Shown: in pieces, positions 55,370-63,542 of the stretch | How the letters are laid out: every line of letters begins with the position of its first letter | Numbering within the stretch: position 1 is the stretch's first letter | Source of the DNA: Paramesorhizobium deserti | GTDB lineage: Bacteria > Pseudomonadota > Alphaproteobacteria > Rhizobiales > Rhizobiaceae | Direction of reading: 5' to 3' | DNA: 64,000 nucleotides | NCBI RefSeq assembly: GCF_001558695.1 | Contig: NZ_LNTU01000001.1 | Coordinates: forward strand, 1-64,000 | Made by a program: the position numbers and the translations under genes | The notes under the pieces: generated by a model | What the model saw: only the letters and a program-made list of their open reading frames with translations | The model's database searches: none | Told to the model about the DNA's origin: nothing

Positions 55370-55535
55370 CAACACCCCCCTCTGGCTTGCCAGCCATCTC
55401 CCCCACAAGGGGGGAGATTACGACTTTATCAACGTTCGACTTCAATCGCGGACGTTGCAGAACGGGGGCGGAGAGTTGTGTCGGCCAATCTCCCCCCTTG
55501 TGGGGAGATGCCCGGCAGGGCAGAGGGAGGTATAG
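55370..55535. repeat. Type-2 repeat element, complete copy 2
   Basis: CAACACCCCCCTCTGGCTTG at the left and GGCAGGGCAGAGGGAGGT at the right, with the same internal pieces as 46322-46490 (TCAATCGCGGACGTTGCAGA, GCCAATCTCCCCCCTTGTGG). The last 34 codons of the NlpC/P60 gene lie within it. Confidence 0.88.
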
Positions 55536-56851: not shown

Positions 56852-56965
56852 GCCCCCTCTGCCCTGCCGGGCATCTCCCTATTCCTCTGTCGTCATCCTC
56901 GGGCTTGACCCGAGGATGACAATGGGAGGTGCGGGAGATGGCCGGCAGGCCACAGGGTGTAACAG
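56852..56965. repeat. Type-2 repeat ends enclosing one type-1 palindrome
   Basis: CGCCCCCTCTGCCCTGCCGGGC at the left and GGAGATGGCCGGCAGGCCAC at the right are type-2 ends. Between them is a single type-1 palindrome (56890-56920). It separates g12 and g13. Confidence 0.75.
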
Positions 56966-57597: not shown

Positions 57598-58146
57598 TCA
57601 CAAGCTCCTTGTTCCACGCCGGGCGGCCCGCGCCAGCATGCCCGACACCTGCGCCTCCGATTTGCGGAAGGAGGCGGCATCCGGCGTCGATACATTGAAG
57701 ACGACCTGCATCGGCTTTGTCCTGCCGCCCGCCGCCACGCCGAGCCGGCCATCCGCGCCACGGGCGAGCGGCAGGATCGCCTCCGCGCCCGCCTCGCCGG
57801 TCAGCCCCAGCGAACCGCCGGCCATGCCGAAATAGGTGGGGCTCGACACGACGCCGCCCTTGGCGAAGGGCGTGACGCCGCCCAGGCCGCCAAGCAGGCC
57901 GGAGAAGAGCGACGACATAAGCCCCTGCAGCGGCTTCATGCCGGCATCCAGCGCCAGCCCCGCCAGATTGGTCGCAAGTCCGCGCAATACGTCGTCGAGG
58001 CTCCGCCCGCTGACGGCCGCTCCCTTCAACGCCGCCGTCAGGCTGGCCCCGAACCGGCCGGACTTCTTCTGCAGATCGTCGAGCGCGCGATCAAAGGCGC
58101 TGGTATCGGCGTCGATCGCGACCGTCACATTCTCGGTTTCTGTCAT
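57598..58146 (-). CDS. Tail tape measure-like protein of the GTA (g11-like)
   Basis: 182 residues. The N-terminus DADTSAFDRALDDLQKKSG is a tape measure start, the middle has Gly/Leu-rich hydrophobic segments (LMSSLFSGLLGGLGG), and the C-terminus has FAKGGVVSSPTYFGMAGG and GEAGAEAILPL, found at the ends of phage tape measure proteins. The short length matches the short GTA tail. It follows the tail-chaperone frame by three bases. Confidence 0.9.
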   Translation of the reverse strand: MTETENVTVAIDADTSAFDRALDDLQKKSGRFGASLTAALKGAAVSGRSLDDVLRGLATNLAGLALDAGMKPLQGLMSSLFSGLLGGLGGVTPFAKGGVVSSPTYFGMAGGSLGLTGEAGAEAILPLARGADGRLGVAAGGRTKPMQVVFNVSTPDAASFRKSEAQVSGMLARAARRGTRSL

Positions 58147-58149
58147 GTC

Positions 58150-58356
58150 TCACCTGTCGGGAAATGCTTGGCAGAGGGCGTCGAACGCTTCGCGCGATGG
58201 CGCATTCGCCGCTCGTGCCGTGAGGCCCAAAGCCGCCGCCAGCTCGCGCGGCGTCATGGCCCAGAAGGTTTTTGGAGAAAGCCGCAGATGCCCCAGCCCC
58301 GCCTGCATGGCTGCATCCCAGGGAAATGGAGGTGCTGATTCAGCCGCGGCTCTTAA
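58150..58356 (-). CDS. Tail assembly chaperone-like frame (rcc01693/g10.1-like), no own start codon
   Basis: The frame carries PFPWDAAMQAGLGHLRLSPK and TFWAMTPRELAAALGL, the signature of the small tail chaperone family (phage_TAC_6/DUF2376). Between the upstream 58440 and this domain no ATG, GTG or TTG occurs in frame; the only ATG (58308) would cut off its first conserved residues and give 52 residues. The frame is -1 relative to g10 and is entered at AAACCCT just before the g10 stop. I therefore propose that it is made as a g10 fusion by -1 frameshifting, as in many tailed phages. Confidence 0.7.
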   Translation of the reverse strand, partial: LRAAAESAPPFPWDAAMQAGLGHLRLSPKTFWAMTPRELAAALGLTARAANAPSREAFDALCQAFPDR

Positions 58357-58700
58357 GGGTTTGGCGCAGAATCGCTTTCCGGCTTTGATGTCGTTCCGAA
58401 AGTGGCGGTCAAAAGCTCGCTGACGATGCGGGCAAAACCCGCCGCGCCGCCATCGGCCTGCATCCCGGCCACGTCTTCCTCGGTGACGCTGTGGCCGCCG
58501 CCGCGCAAGCCCGCCGTGATGATGCGCACCATGTCGCGCGCCGAAAGCCGGGCTGAGGAAAAACGTGCGATCAGCGCCGTCAGATCCTCCGCCTCGAAGG
58601 CCGCCTCCAGCTCGGCGAGGCTCCCAAGCGTCAGGCAGAGCGCCCATTCGCGACCATCGAGAACCGCCGCCACCTCGCCGCGATGCCGGTTCACCATCAT
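58353..58700 (-). CDS. GTA gp10-like tail protein
   Basis: 115 residues. NRHRGEVAAVLDGREWALC and LTLGSLAELEAAFEAEDL open the GTA_gp10 (PF11836) domain. The C-terminus ends ESDSAPNP. In phages the equivalent gene encodes the shorter tail assembly chaperone, consistent with frameshifting into the next frame. The start overlaps the tail protein stop by four bases. Confidence 0.9.
   Translation of the reverse strand: MMVNRHRGEVAAVLDGREWALCLTLGSLAELEAAFEAEDLTALIARFSSARLSARDMVRIITAGLRGGGHSVTEEDVAGMQADGGAAGFARIVSELLTATFGTTSKPESDSAPNP
58356..58362 (-). promoter_or_regulatory. Candidate -1 ribosomal frameshift site
   Basis: Read on the minus strand the heptamer is A-AAC-CCT, which fits X-XXY-YYZ in the g10 frame; after the slip the codons are AAA and CCC. 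The g10 stop TAA follows directly. C in the Y position is less usual than A or T, so efficiency is uncertain. Confidence 0.45.
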
Positions 58701-59110
58701 ATGAGCTCTCCGAAGGTGATCACGCCGGCCGATTCCAGCGCGATCTCGAAGGTGACCTCCGCATCGTGATTGCCGCCATATTCCAGCGCGGTGATCTGGA
58801 ACGGCCCGTCGAGCGTGCCGAAATCGGGCAGGATGATCCGCCAGGCGAGGATCTCGCCATTGAAGAAGGCGGCGCGGGTGAGCGCATCTGACGCGGCATC
58901 CCTAAAGATGCCGGAGCCGGTGACGGTGGCGCGCTGCACGCCGCTGCCGCCGAGCAACTGCCGCCACCGGCCGGCGGCATCGGCGTCGGTGACGTCGACC
59001 GTCTCGGCATTGAAGGCGATGCGCTTGGCGCGCAGGCCCGCGCAGGTTTCATATCCTCCGTCGGGACGGGCGAGCTTCAGCAATATGTCCTTGCCTCTCT
59101 GGGCGGGCAT
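58697..59110 (-). CDS. Major tail protein of the GTA (g9-like, TP901-1 family)
   Basis: 137 residues. AQRGKDILLKLA, then TCAGLRAKRIAFNAETVDVT and a central WRQLLGGSGVQRATVTGSG signature mark the major tail tube protein. It forms the tail tube. The gap to g8 (109 bp) contains a half type-2 repeat. The start is fixed by a preceding AAGGAGA. Confidence 0.93.
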   Translation of the reverse strand: MPAQRGKDILLKLARPDGGYETCAGLRAKRIAFNAETVDVTDADAAGRWRQLLGGSGVQRATVTGSGIFRDAASDALTRAAFFNGEILAWRIILPDFGTLDGPFQITALEYGGNHDAEVTFEIALESAGVITFGELI

Positions 59111-60744: not shown

Positions 60745-61006
60745 CGCCCCCTCTGGCCTGCCGGCCATCTTTCGCCTGCTATCGTCGTCATCCTCGGGCT
60801 TGACCCGAGGATCCATGGCAAGGGAGCGGAAGCGGTACTGTTACCTGCACCGGGATAGTGGATCGTCAGTCCGGATACGTTATCCGCTAACTGGAATGCA
60901 TCGATGTAGCGAGAAGGTCAGCGCCCCTCAGCCGTGGATCCTCGGGTCAAGCCCGAGGATGACGACTGGAGGGGCGGCGGAGATGTCCGGCAGGACAGAG
61001 GGGGCG
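60745..61006. repeat. Type-1 element nested inside a type-2 element
   Basis: Type-2 ends are at 60745-60772 (CGCCCCCTCTGGCCTGCCGG) and 60979-61006 (GGAGATGTCCGGCAGGACAG). Between them lies a complete type-1 element (60782-60966), with inverted palindromes at 60784-60817 and 60932-60964. The 340-bp capsid-g6 gap contains no gene. Confidence 0.85.
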
Positions 61007-63304: not shown

Positions 63305-63492
63305 CTATCGTCGTCATCCTCGGGCTTGACCCGAGGATCCACGGCAAGGGGCGGAAACGGCATTATCGTCCGCAACGGAATTACGAATGGCCAGCCCGGA
63401 TATTGATCGTACTTGCAAGCTGGAACGAGTCGATGGGCACGCAGGTAGCGCTCCTCAGCCGTGGATCCTCGGGTCAAGCCCGAGGATGACGA
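63305..63492. repeat. Type-1 element, about 185 bp, between portal and g3.5
   Basis: Inverted palindromes at 63308-63343 and 63458-63490 flank an interior that matches those of 44068 (on the other strand) and 60782 (GGCAAGGGGCGGAAACGG and CTCAGCCGTGGATCCTC at the end). The 297-bp gap between portal and g3.5 contains nothing else. Confidence 0.88.
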
Positions 63493-63542
63493 TTGGATAG
63501 ATGGAGTCGCCAATATCCCGCCACAGCACCTGCCAATGGCTG

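Follow-up and report, generated by a model that had tools for sequence, protein, structure and literature searches.

We propose, with a probability of about 0.87, that the chaperone domain encoded behind gene g10 in the gene transfer agent (GTA) cluster of Paramesorhizobium deserti is produced by programmed -1 ribosomal frameshifting. The stretch of DNA analysed, hereafter the window, comprises 64,000 nucleotides (nt), positions 1 to 64,000 of contig NZ_LNTU01000001.1; the minus-strand cluster that it carries is, judged from its genes, a GTA head-tail cluster of the RcGTA type. Two adjacent open reading frames, g10 and the chaperone frame, lie there between the genes for the major tail protein and the tape measure protein. 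Comparison with relatives suggests, as the best explanation, that -1 frameshifting yields a chaperone pair like G/GT of phage lambda in many GTAs, while other lineages use a separate overlapping gene.

Anatomy of the g10 junction

On the minus strand g10 ends with GCG CCA AAC CCT TAA, its stop occupying 58355-58353; the chaperone frame reads GCC AAA CCC TTA AGA over the same region, is open through the heptamer and stays open until TGA at 58152-58150. A slip at 58362-58356 would append 68 residues to the complete 115-residue gp10. The features of the junction are the following.

58353 to 58700, minus strand: g10, coding in the zero frame for 115 residues, the first tail assembly chaperone (lambda gpG-like) (open reading frame; PF11836, 2e-31)
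58356 to 58362, minus strand: candidate slippery heptamer A_AAC_CCT, which a slip would turn into AAA-CCC; its AAC and CCT are the final two sense codons of g10 (sequence; kept in 6 of 6 loci of the genus)
58353 to 58355, minus strand: g10 stop TAA, immediately 3' of the heptamer (sequence)
58150 to 58356, minus strand: -1 frame extension of 68 residues, made of a ten-codon linker (LRAAAESAPP), the chaperone domain and the stop TGA (sequence)
58153 to 58326, minus strand: g10.1 or rcc01693-type domain (PF09550, TIGR02216), putative lambda T-like part (profile matches, predicted helical fold)
58375 to 58380, minus strand: weak Shine-Dalgarno (SD)-like GGAAAG, 12 nt upstream of the heptamer, candidate stimulator (best duplex -3.5 kcal/mol)

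Upstream of the domain start (58326), as far as the stop of the -1 frame (58722), the only ATG, GTG or TTG in that frame is the ATG at 58647, far within g10, and near-cognate codons are limited to ATC at 58389 and CTG at 58638. A preliminary description, made from the letters alone, had stated that no standard start lies between 58440 and the conserved region, that the chaperone frame is exactly -1 to g10, and that g10 ends with A-AAC-CCT followed by TAA, so that a slip reads AAA-CCC; the sequence agrees on all these points.

Conservation among relatives

PF09550 is present in all six genomes of the genus examined and in 186 of 297 genomes of the order. The junctions compared come from 135 genus and order loci, mostly the higher-scoring part of the matches, from 79 usable loci among the best 80 of 505 confirmed named ones, and from a survey of the class, where g10 was found in 52 of 385 genomes and where, of 30 loci, 3 were duplicates and 24 of the 27 others had both genes. 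Once merged, these 238 loci gave 230 distinct Alphaproteobacterial junctions, in which start codons in the chaperone frame were scanned from 36 nt upstream of the g10 stop through to the domain. A second, partial PF09550 match in a genome of the same genus (L008, G003:C13:13221-13322) was excluded from the set; it has an A run and then TAG just upstream, and is possibly a prophage chaperone with a slip site of its own.

The chaperone lies at -1 in 208 of the 230 junctions; among these, 113 have no start codon, 36 have TTG only, 23 GTG and 36 ATG. Another frame relation is found in the remaining 22, 18 with ATG or GTG and 4 without a start, so that the -1 frame accounts for 113 of the 117 junctions without a start (binomial p ~2e-48, relatedness ignored). 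In the genus, AAACCCT stands directly 5' of the g10 stop in six of six loci, the stop being TGA in four and TAG in one of the five loci other than that of the window; all six share a KPL-AA-...-FPW pattern, with linker lengths that differ by whole codons. In 14 near locus pairs, substitutions past the g10 stop fall on positions 1 to 3 of the -1-frame codons 28, 23 and 44 times, respectively (p 0.022), and the domain has a ratio of nonsynonymous to synonymous substitution rates (dN/dS) of 0.10-0.27 (first 35 codons, against 7 relatives); by the latter measure, purifying selection is acting on the chaperone domain. Loci with no start or TTG only that bear a heptamer occur in 33 of 60 family labels, counted over the labelled loci, some of whose coded and named labels may overlap. 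The slip class also has the longer g10, with a median of 121 residues against 105. The comparison of junctions that the preliminary description had proposed as a check thus finds the heptamer, the frame relation and the lack of a start conserved in many relatives.

Heptamer enrichment and chemistry of the candidate slip sites

Heptamers of the form X_XXY_YYZ were counted by frame (zero, +1, +2) over the final 60 nt of g10. The 149 loci with no start or TTG only gave 113, 5 and 8, the 59 ATG/GTG loci 14, 2 and 1, and the 22 other-frame loci 0, 0 and 1. Among 76 no-start loci of the order, 63 carry a heptamer, against 20.5 expected from codon shuffles, and the body of their g10 genes (22.7 kb) holds 7, 5 and 9 by frame. 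The codons of FPW, the first three residues of the domain, can themselves yield CCCTTTCCC, and the count was therefore repeated without FPW-touching heptamers, leaving 92, 5 and 7 in the 149 loci. On these sequence counts, heptamer conservation exceeds chance. In 55 loci g10 ends within the domain; of these, 30 have no upstream heptamer and 26 of the 30 begin the domain with CCC-TTT, versus 6 of the 25 that do have one. CCC-TTT occurs there in 4 of the 59 ATG/GTG loci, but also in 17 of the 94 no-start or TTG loci with an earlier g10 stop. The trade-off reached a Fisher p of 4e-4 in the first 38 order loci, and this distribution counts against protein conservation as the whole cause at FPW.

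The final base N is T in 37, C in 3 and G in 1 of the AAACCCN copies, G in 14 and C in 2 of the GGGAAAN copies, and C in 41, G in 10, T in 6 and A in 2 of the CCCTTTN copies. In Escherichia coli, according to PMC4066793, the best motifs allow full re-pairing of the A-site tRNA, C_CC.Y belongs to a group of six tetramers that clearly exceed background when a pseudoknot is present, and A_AA.C_CC.A is under the threshold; the final bases of AAACCCN and GGGAAAN would mostly permit A-site re-pairing, matching these rules. A zero-frame shifty tetramer is present in 144 of the 149 no-start or TTG loci (22 and 67 in the other frames) and in 20 of the 59 ATG/GTG loci (4 and 12). As a separate observation, in four loci (L104, L121, L130 and L136) the zero frame of g10 continues past AAACCCT into a CCG CCG CCG proline run, which might pause ribosomes at the slip site.

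A possible stimulator was sought at 105 sites, namely the no-start or TTG loci whose heptamer has one of seven listed cores. The energy of pairing with the anti-SD sequence peaks for 8-mers that end 10 nt 5' of the heptamer (mean -5.0 versus -1.3 kcal/mol in the g10 body), and the best duplex within 20 nt is -7.9, versus -3.7 in the body and -6.3 in mononucleotide shuffles. In loci with an ATG or GTG overlapping the g10 stop (NTGA, n=46) the SD-like peak is weaker (-3.2) and lies ~4 nt before the start.

Exchange between heptamer and start codon

The NTGA arrangement is found in 46 of the 230 junctions, and 40 of these have no heptamer; the heptamer is present in 6 of the 46 versus 93 of the 113 no-start loci (Fisher 2e-16, relatedness ignored). 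A junction thus tends to have either the heptamer or the start codon in place of the other. The homologues with a normal start and without heptamer, which the preliminary description had named as grounds for refutation, do occur (40 of 230, in other lineages); given this exchange, they fit the frameshift reading.

This exchange was also followed on a poorly supported FastTree tree of g10 plus domain, with pairing over all branches and with the TTG (36) and other-frame (22) rows set aside. Among 25 independent pairs, for which 13 loci with ATG/GTG not overlapping the g10 stop (8 of them with the heptamer) were also set aside, the heptamer is found only in the no-start member in 13 and only in the start member in 1 (median over 300 draws; p 0.0018, from 0.0005 to 0.013), and parsimony counts 25 changes. 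Taking all ATG/GTG loci as the start class gives 31 pairs, 18 versus 3 (p 0.0015); restriction to supported branches leaves 5 pairs. The resulting figure of 25-31 architecture switches is soft, the tree being poorly supported. It appears somewhat probable that the tail chaperones of GTAs have alternated many times between two architectures, a fusion made by frameshifting and a separate NTGA-coupled gene, AAACCCY, CCCTTTN and GGGAAAG interchanging under an upstream SD-like stimulator. Five loci (L177, L236, L182, L059 and L076) combine an NTGA start with a zero-frame heptamer and are possible intermediates between fused and separate chaperones.

Weighing the alternatives

Several observations weigh against frameshifting. 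In a control stretch, the 60 nt that end the chaperone gene, heptamers number 13, 34 and 6 by frame; the 34 in one wrong frame come presumably from a conserved F-P-D, and protein conservation alone can therefore create heptamers. The strict heptamer is missing in 20 of the 113 no-start and 16 of the 36 TTG loci; among the 36 loci that lack it, 28 have a zero-frame C_CCY tetramer, often directly before the stop, and 8 have none. In E. coli the tetramers C_CC.Y perform modestly and rank under A_AA.G and U_UU.Y (PMC4066793), in line with the preliminary description, which had called the site weakened by C in the Y position. The SD-like stretch of the window is itself weak, GGAAAG being all that it offers; a conserved 3' structure, sought by folding 50 nt downstream across the set, was unsupported (mean z -0.34, p 0.07); and the pair test weakens when FPW-touching heptamers are removed (13 versus 2, p 0.007, worst 0.049). 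Finally, TTG overlaps the g10 stop in 36 loci.

Possible, if unlikely, is a slip confined to the P site: with the stop waiting in the A site, the tRNA-Pro on CCT/CCC would re-pair to CCC during slow termination, so that only C_CCY-stop would matter and the X run would be secondary, the fusion product being identical. CCC plus Y stands directly 5' of the g10 stop in 37 of the 149 no-start or TTG loci, 16 of them without the AAA run (GGACCCT, GCGCCCT, TTCCCCT and others), which favours this route; however, 19 of 37 AAACCCT copies and 41 of 41 CCCTTTC copies lie away from the stop, and the AAA run is kept in all six genus loci.

We consider it improbable that a separate chaperone begins at a non-AUG or TTG codon coupled to g10 termination through a TTGA overlap. 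The stop-overlapping TTG is the only nearby start in those 36 of 230 junctions, including 4 of the 6 genus loci, and the window has the near-cognate ATC already mentioned; but the window (TAA stop) and one more genus locus (TAG stop) have TTA there and retain the heptamer, 113 junctions of the -1 frame have no ATG, GTG or TTG at all, and the SD-like peak would sit ~16 nt upstream of the TTG, too distant when compared with the ~4 nt of the 46 NTGA loci.

A start at the first internal ATG of the domain (58308) is very improbable. It is the start annotated, at the equivalent ATG, in both public phage records with the gene pair, and its Met is found in at least 90% of 40 aligned sequences; this alignment, however, includes loci that have a proper upstream start. 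Beginning there would remove FPWDAA, in keeping with the preliminary description, according to which conserved residues would be cut: in the same 40 sequences F1, P2 and W3 each reach at least 90% conservation, and helix 1 of the predicted domain model begins with W3. An internal start would also leave the conservation of frame and heptamer unexplained. A decayed gene that lost its start and has the heptamer by chance is extremely improbable, the missing start being all that speaks for it, whereas dN/dS is 0.10-0.27 and the start is missing in 113 junctions of identical frame. Transcriptional slippage was rejected, since the junction in the window has no long run of a single base, and so was a 3' stem-loop or pseudoknot in the window, where the stretch is less stable than its shuffles (z +1.08).

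Proposed mechanism

The anatomy, conservation, frame relation, heptamer enrichment and SD-like peak are observed; that ribosomes slip here, how often they do so and what the products do in tail assembly is inferred. The majority of ribosomes would complete g10 and terminate; a minority, with the Asn codon AAC in the P site and the Pro codon CCT in the A site of A_AAC_CCT, would re-pair one base back on AAA-CCC, bypass the stop that follows and continue for 68 more residues, so that a 183-residue fusion of gp10 and tail assembly chaperone domain results. A stimulating role for the SD-like stretch ~10 nt upstream is probable in many relatives. If the pair works as lambda G/GT does, the tape measure protein would be coated by free gp10, and the rare fusion would bring in the major tail protein.

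Protein families and predicted folds

The match of g10 to PF11836 (108 bits) is to a family named Phage_TAC_11 in Pfam, yet described there as a tail tube protein, GTA-gp10. The predicted model of g10 (mean predicted local distance difference test score, pLDDT, 86) has as its best BFVD match an annotated phage tail assembly chaperone (E 2e-4, template modelling score 0.62), lower-ranked matches carrying mixed labels, some of them tail tube protein; the first product thus resembles phage tail assembly chaperones in its predicted fold. The chaperone domain matches PF09550 with 73 bits and TIGR02216 above its cut-off, and is predicted to be helical (mean pLDDT 88), its best match being an annotated tail assembly chaperone at a weak E of 0.37. 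A fold search of the PDB with the g10 model gave no match; a sequence search of solved structures gave no relative of g10 and, for the domain, only a short match to a designed protein. In PHROGs, g10 matches a tail family at 3e-6, and the domain has no match below 0.02.

The surrounding cluster

The families of g8, g9, g10 and g10.1 are all matched in the cluster, which also contains a match to NF048004, 'GTA_megatron' (1669 bits), and further matches above cut-off to TIGR02217, TIGR02218, TIGR02219 and to capsid, protease and connector families; the portal match is below cut-off, the portal piece being incomplete at the window's end. The immediate neighbours of g10 and its extension are as follows.

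58697 to 59110, minus strand: g9, major tail protein, upstream neighbour of g10 (PF06199, 8e-44; TIGR02126)
57598 to 58146, minus strand: g11, tape measure protein, downstream neighbour (NF058675, 4e-40, below the curated cut-off)

The tape measure gene is short (182 residues), and its product falls below the NCBI cut-off of NF058675, the RcGTA tape measure family (137.8 bits versus 220). Closely similar intergenic palindromic elements, GTCATCCTCGGGCTTGACCCGAGGAT, lie in the cluster at 56884-56929, 60779-60824 and 63305-63350, with inverted copies at 60920-60970 and 63447-63497; a second, looser family, GAGATGCCCGGCAGG..., is found at 55505, 56935, 59181 and 60980.

Significance and comparison with known systems

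The mechanism, lambda-type -1 frameshifting, is already known, and the GTA setting is what is new. Our searches of open-licence literature turned up no description of g10/g10.1 slippage in GTAs, a prior mention in subscription papers being possible; in the accessible portions of two papers, a +1 shift is proposed in a different Wolbachia gene (PMC10299305), and frameshifting is mentioned once, as the usual one for R. capsulatus phages and not for GTAs (PMC8601537). Among phages, the search for g10 and its chaperone domain returned two records only, MW091529.1 (L248, 4330-4410) and MW462191.1 (L249, 4333-4389), filed as bacteriophages, with a GTA-like cluster and with AAACCCTTGA at the junction; in each of them the annotated chaperone gene begins at the internal ATG.

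If the frameshift reading is true, domesticated gene transfer particles retain viral recoding in the host chromosome, and the annotation of g10.1 from an internal ATG would be accounted for. Fused and separate chaperones among relatives would then provide a comparative test of the need for the gpG:gpGT fusion and its ratio. Repeated switching between the two architectures, if real, would mean that the host keeps recoding alive for a gene cluster that no virus propagates any more, and would offer a natural series for why lambda-like tails require the fusion. An intact slip site could also mark a GTA cluster under selection.

The heptamer of lambda G/GT is GGGAAAG, which is found in some GTA-type loci too, eight times directly before the stop. 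As in lambda, the chaperone pair lies between the major tail protein and tape measure genes, with the second domain in the -1 frame and, as proposed here, fused to the first product, the two-part lambda pair being made at a ratio of 30:1 according to a review (PMC5009743). Unlike lambda G/GT, the GTA pair belongs to a chromosomal cluster, has mostly AAACCCY or CCCTTTN, showed no conserved 3' structure in the folding, and is predicted from sequence. Families and gene order match RcGTA g10/g10.1 (rcc01692/rcc01693); a class-level family with ATGA starts (L223, L226) may be the R. capsulatus group. The RcGTA genes differ in being described as two genes, tail chaperones 1 and 2 (PMC11409702), frameshifting going unmentioned in the accessible text of that paper and of PMC9765227. 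Caulobacter phage Seuss (KT001914) likewise has a tape-measure chaperone with annotated ribosomal slippage, as a joined coding sequence immediately preceding that for the tape measure protein; the similarity of its products to g10 in fold is weak (Foldseek E ~0.2), and Seuss is a phage genome. The E. coli dnaX frameshift has an upstream SD stimulator, and an SD-like stretch lies likewise ~10 nt upstream of the heptamer in GTA loci; unlike dnaX, these have another heptamer and no downstream hairpin was found in them.
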